This document shows positions 8,656 to 27,559 of a stretch of 38,495 bases of DNA, piece by piece. This DNA comes from Melioribacteraceae bacterium (GTDB taxonomy: Bacteria; Bacteroidota; Ignavibacteria; Ignavibacteriales; Melioribacteraceae). The translations under genes and the position numbers were made by a program. The stretch is taken from NCBI GenBank assembly GCA_021740785.1, contig JAIOZI010000050.1, positions 1-38,495 on the forward strand, written 5' to 3'. The notes below the pieces were generated by a model that was given only the letters and a program-made list of their open reading frames with translations, had not been told where the DNA came from and did not search any database. How positions within the stretch are numbered: position 1 is the first letter of the stretch; every line of letters begins with the position of its first letter.

Positions 8656-9093
8656 CCCGGATTTTCCATTGGAAAATCTGCCCTACAGTCGACAATTTGT
8701 AAGTAAGAAATATCAGATACCTAGCCATTTTAGAATTTTGGAATTCGTTATTAATCCGGAATTATGATTTAGAATACGATACAGAAATAATAGGATTATA
8801 AATTGCGCCGTCATTTTTCCGTAGGAACGCCTATGGCGATGGCGGCGATTCTTTAAAGATAATGGAATGCGGGCTTTAGCCCAATAGCCTTTTGGTTTAA
8901 AACCCGATATACTCGTTTATCCATTATTCACAGCCTCTGAAGCGCCATGCTATTATTCTTATTGAATAATCCAGGTTAATGTAAAATGTTTTTCTTACAA
9001 ATTGTCGAGGTTAACCCCGCAACATAAAATGTTTTATTGAAACATTTTATTAGCTGCCTGCGGTAAAAAATTCATTACAAATGAACTTTTAGG
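8656..9093 (-). mobile_element. Element copy B, diverged and interrupted
   Basis: This is a reverse-orientation copy of the ~215-bp element split into two parts, 8656-8755 and 8976-9093, by a 220-bp insertion. The left part has the terminal hairpin (stem around CCATTGG, 8660-8679) and GACAATTTGTAAG. The right part has CTTACAAATTGTCG, GGTTAACC, the 13-bp-stem hairpin CATAAAATG..., and a decayed outer hairpin. Flanks are TTTAT (8651-8655) and TTCAT (9094-9098), which differ at one base and fit an old target duplication. The right flank contains the waaA stop codon. This is the most diverged of the five copies. Confidence 0.75.
8756..8975. mobile_element. Second non-coding element nested in copy B
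   Basis: 220 bp inserted in the central part of copy B, flanked by a perfect 5-bp duplication TTAAT (8751-8755 and 8976-8980). Removing it and one duplication restores the order of the parent repeat as seen in copy D. The ends begin CCGGAATTAT and, on the other strand, CCTGGATTAT, an imperfect terminal inverted repeat. Inside are small hairpins, including CGCC-TAT-GGCG and GGGC-TTTA-GCCC. There is no open frame of useful size. It is unrelated in sequence to the parent repeat apart from having CC/GG ends, similar length and the same duplication length. Confidence 0.7.
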
Positions 9094-9094
9094 T

Positions 9095-12551: not shown

Positions 12552-12797
12552 CTATAACATTCTCCTTATTCGTTAGAACATCTAATTCTAATTTTAATCA
12601 AAAACTAAAGATAGATAATTACTGAGTGAATAAATGTCATGATATGTCATCATATGTCAAAGAATGGTATTAAGCCGGATTCTTGAATATAAAGATGCAT
12701 TTGAATTCTCTTATCTGTTTTATATCAATGCTGTCAACTTAAGAATTGAACTGAGCAACTCGACTATGGTTGAAGTCTACGACAATATCATACTAAT

Positions 12798-13013
12798 CCC
12801 AAAAAATTCATTGGAAATAAATTTTTTGCCGCTGACCGCTCATAAAATGTTTTATTAAAACATTTTATGTTGCGGGATTAACCCCGACAATTTGTAAGAA
12901 AAATATTTTACTCAAATAAAGAATTTCAAAATTTCTATATGGCTAAGTATTTGATATTTCTCAACTTACAAATTGTCGGCCCGAAGGGCAGATTTTCCAA
13001 TGGAAAATCTGGG
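12798..13013 (+). mobile_element. Element copy C, complete (reference copy)
   Basis: A complete 216-bp copy from CCC to GGG with an exact 5-bp duplication CTAAT at 12793-12797 and 13014-13018. Modules in order: outer hairpin 12801-12827 (12-bp stem, one mismatch, GGA loop), spacer, hairpin 12841-12869 (13-bp perfect stem, ATT loop), GCGGG-ATTA-ACCCCG, 15-bp inverted repeat 12884-12898 paired with 12965-12979 around a ~66-bp AT-rich core, GCCC-GAA-GGGC, and end hairpin 12989-13010. Both end hairpins share ATTGGAAA at their tips. No open frame of note; no transposase. Confidence 0.9.
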
Positions 13014-13076
13014 CTAATAAAAACCTTATTCGGTGATGAAACTTTTGGTTATTTAACAAAACTTCTTCTCGACATA

Positions 13077-13240
13077 CAATCCCGAGGGATTGAACGTGAA
13101 TAGATAATGAATATAAATTAATTTTAACAACCCCTGCAGGGTTGAACATATTCTTTCATATTCAACCACTCCGTGGTTGATGGTTTCCTTTTCAATATAG
13201 GCTATTCACATTGAACCCCTTGAACCCCTACCGGGGTTCA
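13077..13240. repeat. Cluster of four palindromes
   Basis: Four hairpins, each with a CAA.../...TTG outer stem: CAATCCC-GA-GGGATTG (13077-13092), CAACCC-CTGCA-GGGTTG (13128-13144), TCAACCAC-TCC-GTGGTTGA (13162-13180) and TGAACCCC-TACC-GGGGTTCA (13221-13240). GTGAATAG after the first and CTATTCAC before the last are complementary, so the cluster could also fold as one large structure. No clear target duplication or gene. Confidence 0.75.
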
Positions 13241-13615
13241 AAAACATTTTAACCCAGCCTCTCTATGCCTTTGCTCTCTGCTCTCTGCCTTTCACCCTTC
13301 TTCTTAAAAAATATATTGTTTCGTAACAGACCGCAGATAGAAATTCAATGAGCAATAGGTTATAGTATTTACGACTAATTTCACTAAGTTGACAGCATTG
13401 CAAACTGCGTAGGGGATTCGAAATGAAATTACAAATATGACGAAACTAGTTTTTCGCATTCAAAACAACATTTAATTATCTGATGGATATTTATTGCAGC
13501 CTTACATGCACGGTTAATGGAAAACATTTTGTGCTTGGTAAAAATCAATAATAAGATTAAGGAAATTTCGCTATCTTCTATCTTTAGAAATCTTATCAAA
13601 TGAAAAGAAAATTAA
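13241..13615. other. Gene-free leader region of the soluble kinase gene
   Basis: 375 bases with a pyrimidine-rich CTCTGC repeat stretch (13258-13300) and otherwise AT-rich DNA. No gene seen. The promoter of the downstream kinase gene probably lies here, but I cannot place it. Confidence 0.5.
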
Positions 13616-16600: not shown

Positions 16601-17443
16601 AGGAAGGATGGTACTTATTGTTATATGCAGATGTTTGAAAAGCGGGTTCCGCTTCCGAATGGTGAATACGGGATAATAAACGTTGCGAGTGACATCACTG
16701 AAATAAAAAGATACGAGGAAGAAATAATTCAAGCAAAAGAGAAAGCGGAGATTTCAGATAAACTTAAATCCGAATTTCTTGCTCAAATGTCACATGAGAT
16801 CAGAAGTCCTATCAACGTAGTATTAAGTTATTCAAGTCTATTATCAGAAGAATTTAGAGATGAACATGACGAACTTAAGAAAGAAATATTTACGGGAATG
16901 GAAAATGCAGGAAGAAGGATCATCAGAACAATAGATTTGATCTTGAATATGTCTGAGATTCAAACCGGAACATATGAGCCGTCACCGAAAAAATTAAATC
17001 TTTATTCGGATATATTAAATAATCTCTTCACTGAATTCTCAAAATCTGCTAAGAGAAAAGGATTAGAATTCTTAATCCAGAATAAAGCTCCTAAATGCAA
17101 TATAATTGCCGATGAATATTCAGTTACACAAATTTTCGGCAACCTGATTGATAACGCGATTAAGTATACCAAGAAAGGAAAAATTGAGGTGATTATTAAT
17201 GAAGAACCTGAACATCTTTCGGTTAGCGTGGTTGATACAGGGATCGGAATTTCGGAGGAATATATCCCTTCACTCTTTGAAGCATTCTCTCAGGAAGAAC
17301 AGGGATATACAAGAAAATTCGAAGGCAATGGACTCGGCTTAGCGCTCGTAAAAAAATACTGTTCAATTAATAATGCCGAGATAAATGTAGAAAGTAAAAA
17401 GGGAAGAGGAGCAATGTTTACGGTGAGATTCCATAAAAATTAA
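13616..17443 (+). CDS. Soluble histidine kinase with eight PAS domains
   Basis: A 1275-aa cytoplasmic kinase with no membrane segment. A short coiled-coil start (8-30) precedes eight PAS domains at about 40-155, 168-280, 290-412, 422-537, 545-660, 668-782, 792-908 and 918-1033, each ending in a DIT/DIS-type signature. HisKA has phospho-acceptor H1060 in AQMSHEIRSP; HATPase has N1176/N1180, D1207-TGIG and GNGLGL at 1237-1242. There is no receiver domain, so it needs a separate response regulator, none of which is in the window. Residues 1051-1275 differ from the core of the 2017-aa kinase at only 20 positions. No strong ribosome site precedes the ATG. The signals sensed are unknown; I see no conserved cofactor-binding residues I could name. 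Confidence 0.95.
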   Translation: MKSYSNFNKKELISEIEILRKEIDNLKRKYEPEQDINNLDLVSFMNSAPFAIMIVDQGRVIYANHKLVEIFGYSFEDIGDDHNKWFTLAYPDANYREKVLKTFQEDINHLEYKSSTSREYFVTSKSGSKRLARFKLIKIDQSKTGIVVEDITELKLIEDQLHKREYLYRLLFNYAPIGILHYDENGIIQSCNDEFVRTIGSSKQALTGFDMLNRLTNMGVLQAVKDSLESGEGYYSGEYHSVTGDKISYTRCYFKAIRDAENKFIAGVGIINDITEIEKVTRELADSERQYRLLASNINDVLWLYDIYSDRFSYLSPSVEKIVGYKPGELIGRSFDILLPKNTQKYVRRIINSKLAKEKEGTLNDEPLRLELEHISKDGSIIWIEVIITIIRGESGKIDNLLGLSRDISSKKKIENDLRESEKKFRELVEMSPYMIAVHTDGILKYINEAGVKIMGAKSADELIGKKVTDFVHPDYKDFAISRVKKLVAGAHKVPESNEKLITVDGRSIDVAITGLRTIQDGKISIQLIVRDITEKIQSEKHFGLLADALRSINECISITDMENKILFVNNAFERTYGYTLDELIGENINIVSSEPEKDEKQMNVLPTTLSSGSWSGELINRRKDGTEFPIKLSSTVITDEENNRIALIGVAEDISERKKSEEKIHLQSAALEAASIGILITDTNGIVAWINPAFSELTGYKESEIIGESTSILKSGIHTKEFYENLWSTIKSGKVWSGEITNKKKDGSLYIEEMTITPVKNSSEEITNYICVKQDITHRKSVERELRESEERFRSLYENATIGMYRTTPSGTVLLANQAFARMLGYNTVEELYKTNLEETDYTKKGMRTIFKKILEEKGFVNGFETLWTINDGSIISTRESSRAIKDNEGKVLYYEGTVEDITEKYLADKKLEENEKRYHTLFELSPTGILLEDVNGIIMDLNPALCQSLKYSREELIGQHISILAAPENIRFVEENIAKINDGEILIHQTRSRRKDGTYCYMQMFEKRVPLPNGEYGIINVASDITEIKRYEEEIIQAKEKAEISDKLKSEFLAQMSHEIRSPINVVLSYSSLLSEEFRDEHDELKKEIFTGMENAGRRIIRTIDLILNMSEIQTGTYEPSPKKLNLYSDILNNLFTEFSKSAKRKGLEFLIQNKAPKCNIIADEYSVTQIFGNLIDNAIKYTKKGKIEVIINEEPEHLSVSVVDTGIGISEEYIPSLFEAFSQEEQGYTRKFEGNGLGLALVKKYCSINNAEINVESKKGRGAMFTVRFHKN

Positions 17444-24000: not shown

Positions 24001-27000
24001 AATTGCAGCGATGACAGATGTTGTGATCGTGTTTAATTCTGAAGGACGCTATATAAAAATTGTCGATACAAATCCTGATCTTTTATATAAACCGTCGGAA
24101 GAGATGCTGGGTAAAACCCTTCATGAATTATTCCCCAAAGATAAGGCGGATATATTTTTGAGTTACATTACCGCCGCACTTGCCGAACAAAAACCTAAAA
24201 CCGTAGAATACAATTTAACAATTGATGAAAAAGTATATTGGTTCAATGCCACTCTTTCTCCCGTATCAGGCGAAGCCGTATTGCTGGTGGCTCGCGATAT
24301 TACCGATCGAAAACAAACCGAGGAAACCGTTCGTAGAATGAACAGGGAATTGCGCGCGATCAGTAATTGCAATCAAACTCTTCTTAGAGCTGAGGACGAA
24401 CAGACACTCATCAATGAAATTTGTAGAATTATATGTGAAGAAGCCGATTATAGAATGGCATGGGTCGGTTATGCTGAACACGATGAACAAAAAAATATAC
24501 GCACCGCTGCTTGGTCAGGTTATAACAAAGGCTATATTGAAAGTATAAAGCTAAGCTGGTCCGAGGATTCGAAATACGGTCGGGGACCGGCTGGATTAGC
24601 CGTTAGAACCGGGCAATCAATAATTGTCCAGGATATTGAAAACGATAATTTGATGGAACCCTGGCGTAAAAAAGCATTACAATGCGGCTATCATTCATGT
24701 TTAGCGCTTCCGCTAAGTGATGAAATCAATAAATCATTCGGTGTGCTTGTTATTTACTCCGGGGAAAAGAACCTAATTACCGATGCTGAAATTCAACTTA
24801 TTGAAGAATTAGCAGGAGATTTGGCGTTCGGCATAAATACATTACGCCTGCGTGAAGATAGAAATAGAATTGTAGAAGCGCTTCGTGAAAGCGAGGAACG
24901 GTTTAGACTGATTGCTGAAAATACTGCCGATACAATTAATGTATTTGATTTCGATCTGAAACCTATTTATGCAAGCCCATCGATTGAAAAATTACGCGGG
25001 ATAACGGTTGAAGAATCGATGAAAGAAACCTTAGATAAAGTAATGACACCTGAATCATTTAAGAAGGTTATGGATGCATATAAGCAACAATTGGAGTTGG
25101 AAAAAAGAGCTGATTCAGATCCTCAACGCGCGGTGGTTCTTGAAATTGAAGAATATCGAAAAGACGGTTCCACAGTTTTAGTTGAAGTTACAGCTTCGTT
25201 TTTGAGAGATGAAAGCTCCAAACCTATAGGAATACTTGCAGTTTCGAGAGATATTACCCGCCGTAAGCAAGCTGAAATTAAACTTATAGAAAGTGAACAA
25301 AAACTTAGAAATGTTTTTAATACTATTTCCGAAGCGTTGACATTTAATGAATTGATCTATGATGAAAACGGTGATATTGTTGATTATAGAATTATCGAAG
25401 TTAATCCGGCGTTCGAAAAAGATACCGGGCTTACCAGGGAGCAGGCAATAGGGAAAAAAGCTACCGAGTTATATGGTATGAAACCCGATTATATCAATAA
25501 ATTTTGGAAGGAAAACTCCAATAGCCAACGCCCGATAATTACGGAAATGTACATTGAGCAGATTGACCGCTGGAAACATATTATCGCGTCTTGTCCTGTT
25601 GAAAATAAAATTGTAATATCTTATTTCGATATAACCGAAAAGAAGAAAATTGAAGCCGCCCTGGTTGAAAGTGAGAAAAAGTACCGGGCTATATTTAATA
25701 ATTCACCATTAGGCATTTTCCGCTCAACGCTCGAAGGGCAATTCCTTGAACTGAATCCTGCGCTTGCTAAAATGCTTGGTTATGACTCACCTGAAATCGT
25801 GATTAAAGAGATTTACGATATAGCCAAACAAATATACATTAGAAGCGAAGACCGGGCTGATATTATCACCACACAGCTTGCGGCAAAAGAAATTAAACAG
25901 CACCTTTGCCGGTTCCGGAGAAAAGACGGCAGTGAATTTATTGCTAATCAATATTTAAGAACGGTTAGAGATTCTGATGGCAAACCTCTTTATCTTGAAG
26001 GCATTATGGAAGATATAACGGAACAAAAACATGCTGAAAACGAGGTGATGAAACTTTCCGAAGCTGTGGCTCAAAGCCCCGCTTCAATAATAATAACTGA
26101 TCTAGATGGTAACATCGAATACGTGAATAAAACTTTTGAAGAGAAGTCGGGTTATTCATTCCGGGAAGTTTTGAATGAAAATCCAAGGATATTAAAATCA
26201 GGTTATAATAAAGACGAGGATTATATAGCTCTTTGGAAAACAATTAGAGCCGGTAAAACTTGGCGGGGCGAACTTTTAAATAAAAAGAAAAACGGAGAAT
26301 ATTACTGGGAAGAAGTTTTAATTTCACCGATAACAAATGCAGATGGTAAACCCGTAAATTACCTCGCTGTAAAACAGGATATTACTGAAAGAAAACAGAT
26401 TACGGAAGCATTGATCGAGGCAAAAGAAAAAGCAGAAACGTCAGCCAAATTAAAATCAGAATTTCTTGCACAGATGTCCCATGAAATTAGGACTCCAATC
26501 AATGTAGTTCTTAGTTATTCAAGCCTGCTGTCAGAAGAATTTAAAGGCAGCAAAGATGAATTAAAAAAAGAAATTTTTCAGGGAATGGAAAATGCCGGGA
26601 AACGGATAATAAGAACAACCGATTTGATATTGAATATGTCTGAGATTCAAACCGGAACATATGAGCCGTCACCGAAAAAATTAAATCTCTATTCGGATAT
26701 ATTAAATAATCTCTTCATTGAATTCTCAAAATCGGCAAAAAGAAAAGGATTAGAATTTTTGATTAAGAATAAAGCTCCTAAATGTAATATAATTGCTGAT
26801 GAATATTCGGTCACCCAAATTTTCGGCAACCTGATTGATAATGCGATTAAGTACACCAAGAAAGGTAAAGTTGAGGTGATTATTAATGAAGAACCTGAAC
26901 ATCTTTCGGTAAGCGTGAATGATTCTGGGATTGGAATCTCAAAGGAATATATCCCTTCACTCTTTGAGGCATTCTCTCAAGAAGAACAGGGATATACTAG

Positions 27001-27130
27001 AAAATTTGAAGGCAACGGGCTCGGCTTAGCATTAGTAAAAAAATATTGCGCAATTAATAATGCCGAGATAAATGTAGAAAGCGAAAAGGGAAGAGGATCA
27101 ACCTTTACAGTTCGGCTTCCTAAAAACTAA
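21077..27130 (+). CDS. Giant membrane histidine kinase: CHASE8-like, HAMP, 8 PAS, 3 GAF
   Basis: 2017 aa. TM1 is at 11-33, a small periplasmic CHASE8-like domain at about 35-155, TM2 at 157-178 and HAMP at 180-232. Then come PAS (245-362), PAS (372-487), GAF (505-665), PAS (675-795), GAF (808-955, with AGVWADC and PVIHNDY), PAS (968-1077), GAF (1095-1255, with RMAWVG and GRGPAG), and four PAS (1270-1397, 1407-1522, 1535-1650, 1660-1775). HisKA has H1802; HATPase has N1918/N1922, D1949-SGIG and GNGLGL at 1979-1984. There is no receiver and no GGDEF domain. The N-terminus through HAMP matches the plan of YfiN, and the gene is translationally coupled to the YfiR-like gene: 3-base gap, with GGGGGAG inside the upstream coding end. 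It should sense YfiR binding plus several cytoplasmic signals and phosphorylate an unlinked regulator. Confidence 0.95.
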   Translation: MKFFYNLSIKNKLIVIILFTTAIIICAGSVLEVVVNAARYKEEMVNSTIVNARLIGEYSIAPLSFGDEKVAADVINRVETIPSIATGCIYDENDNLFVSYQKTKDNDLPKSIYREVKYLFTEDYLKVFYPIEYKGNKYGTVYLKASTEILNDKINEQIFYTLLLILALLVLSYIIASKLQSTISKPILDLTRITNRVGSEMDYSSRVQKRGSDEIGLLYESFNEMLTQINLHEEERNKSEELLRQSEAKYRNIVDTAMEGIWGLDDESNTIFVNAQMAEMLGYSIEELYTRDITDFIFPEDIPYYRKKEENRRAGLAESYEFRFNDKNGNTVWTIASASPVFDSSQNFRGSFAMFTDISERKQAEKRLSDTASRLNEAQRIAHIGSWELNLVTNVLTWSDEIYRIFEIDKEKFGATYEAFLNAIHPEDIEAVDFAYTNSLKTKEPYHIEHRLLFPDGRIKHVREQCETFFEGDKPLRSIGTVQDITVQKIAEMALKEKQLHSQSLLRLSKKFELAYTYDEVVNAALEEINKIIGYKNIWVYLFSEDKKYAFVLAAEGTVSNLILSEKEVTRLTINGDKMLEEIAAAQEIIIVEDALIDEKTNKEIVGILKNRTIINIPIMFFDKHLGSLGTGTFGDEGIRIPSKAEQEYLIALANHMAVSIDRIHLMIERDKVQTHLKKLAESSPGLMITLYQRTDGTMCMPYASPRILELYGLSPEDVKDDTTELFARYHPDDIELVKKTIAESARNMTLCRQEFRVNHPSRGVIWLEGHTMPEPHPDGGVLWYGFVHDITERKQNEAINNSRLHLMQFAATHSLDDLLEETLNEVEKHTGSKIGFFHFVDDDQISLTLQNWSTKTKSQFCRAEGKGFHYKIDEAGVWADCFHERKPVIHNDYASLPHRKGMPEGHAEVIRELVVPVIRRDKIKVILGVGNKEHEYNESDVKNISLLADLAWEVVEKKQAEEALQASEAELRSLIAAMTDVVIVFNSEGRYIKIVDTNPDLLYKPSEEMLGKTLHELFPKDKADIFLSYITAALAEQKPKTVEYNLTIDEKVYWFNATLSPVSGEAVLLVARDITDRKQTEETVRRMNRELRAISNCNQTLLRAEDEQTLINEICRIICEEADYRMAWVGYAEHDEQKNIRTAAWSGYNKGYIESIKLSWSEDSKYGRGPAGLAVRTGQSIIVQDIENDNLMEPWRKKALQCGYHSCLALPLSDEINKSFGVLVIYSGEKNLITDAEIQLIEELAGDLAFGINTLRLREDRNRIVEALRESEERFRLIAENTADTINVFDFDLKPIYASPSIEKLRGITVEESMKETLDKVMTPESFKKVMDAYKQQLELEKRADSDPQRAVVLEIEEYRKDGSTVLVEVTASFLRDESSKPIGILAVSRDITRRKQAEIKLIESEQKLRNVFNTISEALTFNELIYDENGDIVDYRIIEVNPAFEKDTGLTREQAIGKKATELYGMKPDYINKFWKENSNSQRPIITEMYIEQIDRWKHIIASCPVENKIVISYFDITEKKKIEAALVESEKKYRAIFNNSPLGIFRSTLEGQFLELNPALAKMLGYDSPEIVIKEIYDIAKQIYIRSEDRADIITTQLAAKEIKQHLCRFRRKDGSEFIANQYLRTVRDSDGKPLYLEGIMEDITEQKHAENEVMKLSEAVAQSPASIIITDLDGNIEYVNKTFEEKSGYSFREVLNENPRILKSGYNKDEDYIALWKTIRAGKTWRGELLNKKKNGEYYWEEVLISPITNADGKPVNYLAVKQDITERKQITEALIEAKEKAETSAKLKSEFLAQMSHEIRTPINVVLSYSSLLSEEFKGSKDELKKEIFQGMENAGKRIIRTTDLILNMSEIQTGTYEPSPKKLNLYSDILNNLFIEFSKSAKRKGLEFLIKNKAPKCNIIADEYSVTQIFGNLIDNAIKYTKKGKVEVIINEEPEHLSVSVNDSGIGISKEYIPSLFEAFSQEEQGYTRKFEGNGLGLALVKKYCAINNAEINVESEKGRGSTFTVRLPKN

Positions 27131-27559
27131 CGCTTTGATTTAAAAGAATCGGCAGTATCTTTTACTTTTGACAGTAATTTTTTAACCCAAACAAATTCAG
27201 TAGCTAAAATTGATAACCCCAATGGAATTACTATAAATGCCGGTCCGGGAAGTACAATTAAACCCAGATTTTCCATTGGAAAATCTGCCCTTCGTGCCGA
27301 CAATTTGTAAGCTGAGAAATATAAGATACTTAGCCATATAGAAATTTTGGAATTCGTGATTTAAGTAAAATATTTTTCTTACAAATTGTCGGGGTTAACC
27401 CCGCTCATAAAATGTTTTATTAAAACATTTTATGAGCGACCAAAGGCAAAAAAATCATTTCCAATGATTTTTTTGGGTTAAAAATAATCCGATTACTACA
27501 ATCGTCGTCCCGACAATTCCAACAATAATCCGCTTAACTTGTTTTAGTGTTCTTTCCAT
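27127..27559 (-). pseudogene. PGPGW-family membrane protein gene split by element copy D
   Basis: The 5' part (27559 down to 27478) encodes MERTLKQVKRIIVGIVG and a hydrophobic run to VVIGLFL. The 3' part (27262 down to 27127) encodes LIVLPGPAFIVIPLGLSI, then LATEFVWVKKLL and a basic tail ending KSKR-stop. Joining them by removing the element and one TTAAA copy gives one uninterrupted frame, FLIVLPGP, matching the PGPGW transmembrane family (about 75 aa, function unknown). As it stands, translation runs from ACC into the element and stops within its first hairpin. The gene is downstream of the TolC-family gene (38-base gap), and its stop overlaps the 3' end of the giant kinase gene by two bases, tail to tail. 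Confidence 0.88.
27263..27477 (-). mobile_element. Element copy D, complete, inserted in a gene
   Basis: A 215-bp reverse-orientation copy, CCC at 27263 to GGG at 27477, with an exact duplication TTAAA (27258-27262 and 27478-27482). All modules are present: end hairpin, 15-bp inverted repeat, GGGGTTAACCCC (27391-27402), the 13-bp-stem hairpin, and the outer hairpin AAAAAAATCATT...AATGATTTTTTT. The core differs from copies A, C and E at several places, and the GCCCTTCGGGC mini-hairpin is altered to GCCCTTCGTGCC. Confidence 0.92.

Follow-up and report, generated by a model that had tools for sequence, protein, structure and literature searches.

What kind of element is the short, hairpin-rich repeat found in a Melioribacteraceae genome, and what moves it? 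The question is raised by a contig of 38,495 nucleotides (JAIOZI010000050.1; the whole stretch is called the window here) that carries intact, diverged and truncated copies of the repeat (Table 1). We consider it very probably a MITE, a miniature element without a transposase of its own that derives from IS1380-family insertion sequences (ISs), because some IS1380 ISs of related genomes have ends of this motif and NTNAN target duplications.

Table 1. Features of the window and of related insertion sequence loci
Feature	Position or length	Strand	Remarks
Element copy C	12798..13013	+	216 bp; ~100 genomic copies
Left target duplication CTAAT	12793..12797	.	Empty paralog with one CTAAT at C11:27463-27467
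Right target duplication CTAAT	13014..13018	.	Sequence and empty paralog
Left terminal repeat CCCAAAAAATTCATTGGAAA	12798..12817	+	Motif shared with IS1380 ISs
Right terminal repeat, inward reading CCCAGATTTTCCATTGGAAA	12994..13013	-	Inverted-repeat search and motif scan
Left end hairpin (terminal repeat and inverted copy of its inner part)	12800..12828	.	Folding; helix 1
Second AT-rich hairpin	12841..12869	.	Folding; helix 2, 7/17 pairs changed on both sides
Centre GGGATTAACCCC (GGGGTTAACCCC in relatives)	12874..12885	.	Looks like two element ends abutting one TTAA target
Left 15-bp arm flanking core	12884..12898	.	Inverted-repeat search; helix 3
Right 15-bp arm flanking core	12965..12979	.	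Inverted-repeat search; helix 3
Right end hairpin CAGATTTTCCAATGGAAAATCTG	12989..13011	.	Loop inverted in some copies; helix 5
Copy A, cut by contig start	1..139	+	Right flank TTTAT; 99.3% identical to copy C over part present
Copy B, diverged, interrupted by second element	8656..9094	-	Without matching duplication (1/5)
Nested element of second family, CCGG..CAGG ends	8756..8975	+	TTAAT at 8751-8755 and 8976-8980
Copy D, intact	27263..27477	-	Duplication TTAAA; 91.2% identical
Copy E, cut by contig end	38319..38495	+	Left flank TTGAA; 97.7% identical over part present
Larger repeat hosting copy C	12726..13400	.	16-bp perfect terminal repeats CAATGCTGTCAACTTA; element inserted into repeat
IS L201	1483 bp		Flanks ATAAT; reading frame runs into motif
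IS L206	1486 bp		Flanks ATAAT
IS L204	1488 bp		Flanks GTTAT; stop inside gene
End motif beside PF13701 match	G188:C22, G273:C27, G180:C16, G169:C12, G242:C169		Among matches listed

The sequence of copy C bears out the coordinates, the CCC and GGG ends and the CTAAT duplications first proposed for it, as well as the TTAAA duplication (27258-27262 and 27478-27482) around copy D. An inverted-repeat search recovered a 20-bp terminal repeat (75% complementary), a 14-nt stem in the second hairpin and 15-bp arms separated by 66 nt; as single-stranded DNA, the copy folds far better than 200 shuffles (z -7.78), and it is almost wholly made up of hairpins. As predicted, it has no coding capacity, with no listed ORF of at least 100 aa overlapping it, and a search at Rfam gathering scores gave no matches anywhere in the window. 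At each end, the terminal repeat is succeeded by its own inner part in inverted orientation: the left half reads CCC-hairpin-GCCGAAGGC-CG-hairpin-CGGGG, and the right half follows the same plan inverted, its hairpin being long-looped. The halves meet at GGGGTTAACCCC in relatives and at GGGATTAACCCC in the window copy, and the plan looks like two inverted half-units joined at GGGnTTAACCCC. Two other copies in this genome (C72:26205-26336 and C103:10317-10452) are without the left half and break exactly at the internal TTAA, with left flanks (ATAAC vs ATAAT and TTAAC vs TTAAA, respectively) that seem to combine the duplication with the internal TTAAC. Elsewhere in the genome, a solo 27-bp hairpin CCCAGATTTTCCATTGGAAAATCTGGG lies between TTTAA and TTAAA (locus L084, G000:C78:42931-42957) and corresponds to one element end alone.

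The genome itself (G000) is a draft that comprises 115 contigs and 4,854,194 bases. When up to one mismatch is allowed, the arm 14-mer has 100 forward and 98 reverse matches in it (reversed control, 1 and 1), and the end-hairpin 23-mer, with up to three mismatches, has 104 and 102 (control, 0 and 0); given two arms per copy and a hairpin that is almost self-complementary, either count corresponds to about 100 copies. The density of about one per 8 kb originally noted is thus local to the window, the genome-wide figure being about one per 48 kb. Within 285,847 bases of examined stretches we located 96 places, left out 34 that were partial or at contig edges, and counted the 62 full-length copies with both flanks. 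Their 5-bp target site duplications (TSDs) are exact in 49, match at 4 of 5 positions in 8, at 3 of 5 in 2 and at 1 of 5 in 3, while random pairing of left and right flanks (2000 shuffles) gave a mean of 8.7 and a maximum of 18 exact. The prediction of a non-coding mobile element with 5-bp target duplications therefore survives its own proposed refutation, namely that most genomic copies would lack matching flanks. The target motif is wider than the YTAAW first suggested: all 49 exact TSDs have T at position 2 and A at position 4, 44 have T at position 1 and 45 have A or T at position 5, so that the target is NTNAN, and mostly TTWAW.

Positions are mostly intergenic: ORFs of at least 120 aa span 4 of 59 empty-site joints, compared with 25 of 32 points drawn at random from the examined stretches, a small null in which 32 of 400 draws were usable. 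The recent movement read from near-identical window copies finds little backing genome-wide, as no two of 61 intact copies exceed 98.15% identity and the copy nearest to the consensus differs from it by 1.4%. Copies cut by contig ends are among the closest to the reference, at up to 99.3% over the part present, and the youngest copies may therefore be hidden by the assembly. Both ends of the window contig themselves fall inside element copies.

Within the window, the two intact copies do have the exact duplications claimed for them and the element nested in copy B is flanked by TTAAT; copy B itself has flanks that agree at one position of five. The nested element belongs to a second, low-copy family with four near-full copies (8756-8975 and loci L228, L229 and L230), whose 5-bp duplications, read by eye, are exact (TTAAT, TTTAA, TTAAT and TTAAA); its left end CCGGAATTATGC resembles the ends CCCAAATTATGCATTAG adjoining IS1380 matches in loci L211 and L216. 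Apart from these elements, window positions 16691-17443 and 26378-27130 share 84.8% DNA identity over 755 bp and form the 3' parts of two large sensor-kinase-like genes, reflecting duplication or gene conversion.

Copy C sits inside a larger repeat, which is found uninterrupted on another contig of the genome (C11): its left part (12726-12797) matches 27534-27463 there and its right part (13014-13220) matches 27467-27260, the overlap being a single CTAAT. C11 is therefore an empty site for the element, in a paralogous repeat as distinct from the orthologous locus of a relative; the examined stretches were chosen around element copies, which makes any ratio of filled to empty repeats uninformative. 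The larger repeat is multi-copy, with several short internal GC hairpins and no ORF of at least 100 aa, and we found neither a mobiliser nor a target duplication of its own. Its existence raises the alternative that copies spread mainly through duplication of the larger repeat and homologous recombination, without transposition of their own. Such a route does fit the CTAAT subgroup: the flanks of the window copy recur at two other intact copies (C33:24853 and C109:40167) and at eight partial or contig-edge places, some of which may be halves of one copy, because these copies sit inside the larger repeat, and copy C has also spread as its passenger. For most copies, though, this explanation is refuted by the diversity of flanks (60 different pairs in 62 full-length copies, one of them found three times) and by the 49 exact duplications, leaving it with only a very slight probability as a general account.

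Searching 391 genomes of the class with the 216-bp sequence, and scoring the best two candidates per genome at E<=1e-5, gave matches in nine, the element's own genome included. Six relatives (G213, G279, G096, G027, G076 and G020) have recognisable copies, whose whole or longest matches are 69-84% identical; the matches in the other two (G207 and G394) extend over 40-51 bases within apparent genes and were taken as chance. Scanning named genomes with a pattern picked out 48 stretches, 28 of them in Ignavibacteria bacterium X2_MaxBin.003 and others in Bacteroidetes bacterium OSL_B.mb.4, WY2.bin74, WY4.bin70, DBS2-4.bin16, Ignavibacteriales bacterium CG_4_9_14_3_um_filter_30_11, a Melioribacter roseus MAG and Ignavibacteria bacterium RIFOXYB12. 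Two Clostridia MAGs and one Nitrospira MAG also gave matches, apparently by chance, the rest of the element being absent around them. Both ends could be called at 25 of 49 distinct sites in the relatives, with TSDs exact in 17, matching at 4 of 5 positions in 6, at 3 in one and at 2 in one, a tally that slightly favours matches since the best-fitting duplication was chosen within an end shift of 0-2 bases.

The CCC ends and TTAA-like targets, which we take to be IS1380/piggyBac traits, pointed towards a transposase family, and the search originally proposed for a full-length transposon with the same CCC...GGG ends did lead to IS1380-family elements, in relatives. An end motif, CCCARAWWDKYCATTRGRRA, drawn up from the element and further families in G096, occurs in 35 of the 391 genomes (the reversed control has one match in each of three), and the IS1380 transposase profile PF13701 matches 48 of the same genomes at E<=1e-5, 38 of them over the family cut-off. 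The two co-occur in 15 genomes: PF13701 matches 15 of the 35 genomes with the motif and 33 of the 356 without it (odds ratio 7.3, p 1.4e-6), a count that includes genomes where the motif is the IS's own end and in which some weak PF13701 matches may be other DDE transposases; at the same threshold, PF13701 is absent from 20 of the 35 motif-positive genomes. At no fewer than five places among the matches listed (Table 1), the motif stands outside a PF13701 match, 50-60 bp from its end, and faces into it. The 87-residue fragment adjoining the motif in G242 is assigned to IS1380 by both PF13701 (7.9e-07) and NF033539 (7.6e-06), with scores below both whole-protein cut-offs, as expected of a fragment.

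Thirty PF13701 loci in relatives were examined for end pairs bounded by the same 5 bp on both sides. The search yielded three ISs, each about 1.48 kb long and with NTNAN flanks (L201, L206 and L204; Table 1), along with a further one with CCTGAA ends and TTAAA (L199); the remaining loci, where many matches are truncated, gave no convincing end pair, and a looser form of the motif is present in only 10 of the 30. Compared by eye, the element agrees with these ISs at 16 of 20 positions on the left (L206) and 17 of 20 on the right (L201). At their left ends, L201 and L206 read CAATAG in place of the motif's CATTAG, and L204 diverges from the motif beyond CATTAGA on the right; the left ends of all three and the right end of L204 fit the motif only loosely. 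Other short elements with the end motif, some 180-400 bp long and unrelated-looking, occur in other genomes (L168-L172, L180 and L190-L192), mostly with matching NTNAN flanks, and probably form a wide IS1380-derived set.

In the element's own genome, a draft of 115 contigs, PF13701 found no match, and transposase and element are thus not seen together there. The transposase has presumably been lost from this genome or was never present, or the draft may have lost multi-copy ISs. Several candidate partners were considered and set aside. Upstream of 12 partial copies (234 to 2046 bases searched), no hidden autonomous element emerged; the sole exact match of TSD plus CC, 1579 bp upstream of the solo hairpin on C78, was taken as chance. 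Contig-edge repeats in G096 with CCCAGATTTGTCATTAGAGA ends, and a 2641-bp span in L181, have neither a transposase nor a matching duplication, and at an inside-contig copy of the CCCAGATTTGTCATTAGAGA end in G020 (L157) the two adjoining long ORFs are not transposase-like by eye. In its other features, the element matches what is expected of a MITE: it is short and without a transposase gene, has IS1380-like terminal repeats and the same TSD length and motif, and occurs in many copies at distinct sites. No matching transposase was found with PF13701 in the same genome, but this is not a strict requirement, as partners can be lost.

Our transposase search of this genome covered the PF13701 and PF01609 profiles only, and two observations might suggest that a different DDE transposase, of IS1634 or IS1182 type and with similar ends, moves the element. 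An IS1634-family IS (NF033559) whose ends start with CC lies inside an element copy of the same genome (L095, G000:C48:843-4637, at about locus bases 884-2527), and in a relative an IS1182-family gene (NF033551) lies within a related short element with an IS1380-type end (L184, G188:C122). However, the IS1634-family IS ends in CCCGACTTGTGA/CCTGACTTGTGA and is bounded by 151-bp direct repeats (99.3% identical) in place of 5-bp NTNAN duplications, on which grounds it was rejected as mobiliser; very long target duplications are known for IS1634/IS1549, and those in L095 are alike. The IS1182-family gene apparently has its own ends, AACCCACGACTTAAGAG (by eye), and is read as a nested insertion, and the CATTRGAAA motif is missing from both ISs, so that a mobiliser of either type is very improbable.

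How the hairpins are maintained is a separate matter. Over 13 chosen copies from seven genomes, a named structure of 50 pairs was paired in 94.7% of cells and 17 of the pairs had changed on both sides, neither figure being reached in 500 shuffles (controls slid along the sequence were 30-52% paired, and one shuffle in 500 reached the count of further pair types); as the structure was read from the tested sequences, the pairing itself is biased and the two-sided changes are the stronger evidence. Compensatory changes of this kind separate genera in all five helices, which, together with the strong folding and the mostly intergenic positions described above, might suggest that the hairpins are kept for a host function as RNA or DNA structures (terminators, mRNA stabilisers, or gyrase or recombination sites), with transposition merely spreading the copies. 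We regard this as unlikely. The distribution across the class is patchy, no Rfam family was recognised in the window, and orientation relative to neighbouring ORFs is mixed (19 ++, 15 +-, 7 -- and 6 -+ among 47 scorable copies), while hairpin 1, hairpin 2 and the core vary among the copies of X2_MaxBin.003; the intergenic bias, for its part, is expected from AT-rich targets and purifying selection. Two-sided changes need not mean selection either, as self-correction of palindromes can yield them. The loops are of interest here: at the centre of the end-hairpin loop (12989-13011 and its counterparts), T replaces A in 9 of 62 full-length copies and G or C in none, AAT thus being inverted to ATT, and the hairpin-2 loop has T in 26 and A in 16 of 42 perfect cases among the 96 places. 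These inversions fit extruded hairpins that were copied or resolved in inverted form, shared descent among copies also being possible.

Exchange of whole hairpins is seen between copies within one genome, that of X2_MaxBin.003. Its 29 sites, scored with regular expressions, show 19 combinations of module states, an upper figure, as two sites make up a combination in which nothing was recognised and contig ends truncate some sites. At the same place, hairpin 2 is AT-rich in 9 copies and TCCCGAAAATCGGGA in 15, and the 3' arm of hairpin 1 is TCCCGCTAAATATAAGCGGGA in seven, always together with the changed hairpin 2; extra palindromes are found in the core, the right arm and the 5' arm of the end hairpin (CCTGCC..GGCAGG). 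A similar replacement is found in OSL_B.mb.4 (L122, L125 and L141), where hairpin 2 is swapped for another palindrome between like flanks. Across the loci examined in X2_MaxBin.003 (L111-L155, 195,180 bases), the named palindromes are nearly confined to elements, with one outside match each for two of them, and any TCCCG(3-12)CGGGA occurs 28 times inside elements and 8 times outside, a ratio biased by the choice of these loci for the element. It is tempting, though somewhat short of an even bet, to view the element as a modular palindrome chassis whose hairpins are self-renewing and interchangeable, the 216-bp unit having arisen from two inverted IS1380 mini-elements that shared one TTAA target. 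If so, other palindromes would come to replace extruded hairpins by using them as templates or acceptors.

Comparison with known systems places the element most readily beside IS1380. ISEcp1 is a member of this family. Like IS1380 ISs, the element has CCC ends, an inner end motif (shared within the class) and a 5-bp target duplication; the ISs are ~1.48 kb long and carry a transposase, whereas the element, at 216 bp, has none and its ends are extended into hairpins. In the accessible text of the respective papers, the IS1380 family is called distantly related prokaryotic transposases of piggyBac (PMC10140906), and 5-bp direct repeats (DR) are given for IS1247 (PMC3281130) and ISEcp1 (PMC7527135). 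The accessible portions of two others describe TIMEs as Tn3-derived miniature elements with IR of 38/29-30, naming Correia elements as well (PMC4133298), and MITEPye1 as an IS1182-type miniature element (PMC11578231). As far as those portions go, TIMEs and MITEPye1 are, like the present element, short and non-coding, presumed to be moved in trans and endowed with direct repeats and predicted structured transcripts, but they have other transposase families and ends and reach one or a few copies per genome against ~100 here. The element also has a 20-bp imperfect repeat starting with CCCA in place of the ~38-bp Tn3-like inverted repeats of a Tn3-type TIME. Tn3 ends start with GGGG. REP and BIME sequences, associated with RAYT transposases, are palindromes of mostly intergenic position and high copy number that are not known to make target duplications; the element resembles them in its palindromes, position and copy number but has exact 5-bp duplications in 49 of 62 copies. 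Correia elements of Neisseria are likewise high-copy MITEs able to fold, but differ in their TA duplications and their ends. A literature search, with most subscription journals outside its scope, returned no paper on MITEs in Ignavibacteria and, in the text accessible to it, no description of an IS1380-derived miniature element. The hairpin-only build of the family is unusual.

The following course of events would account for the element. Provided in trans, an IS1380 transposase would bind to the 20-bp ends (CCCA.A...CATTRGAAA), excise the element and insert it, mostly between genes, at NTNAN (best TTWAW) through a cut staggered by 5 bp. Each end, a terminal repeat with an inverted inner copy, could fold into a hairpin, and the whole would consist of two half-units in inverted orientation that meet at TTAA. 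Persistence of the hairpins may be due partly to self-copying of extruded palindromes, as the loop inversions and two-sided changes suggest, and partly to their being useful to, or tolerated in, transposition.

In conclusion, a likely mobiliser can now be assigned to a high-copy hairpin repeat of Ignavibacteria-type genomes, and, with its end motif present in 35 of 391 genomes, IS1380-derived miniature elements seem to form a set that spans the class. They disrupt assembly from short reads, as the window contig illustrates at both of its ends. Palindrome extrusion and template switching may have left a natural record in their varied hairpins and inverted loops. Their NTNAN target and CCC ends are similar to those of piggyBac (TTAA and CCC), and these natural mini-elements could help to test target choice by the IS1380/piggyBac transposase group.
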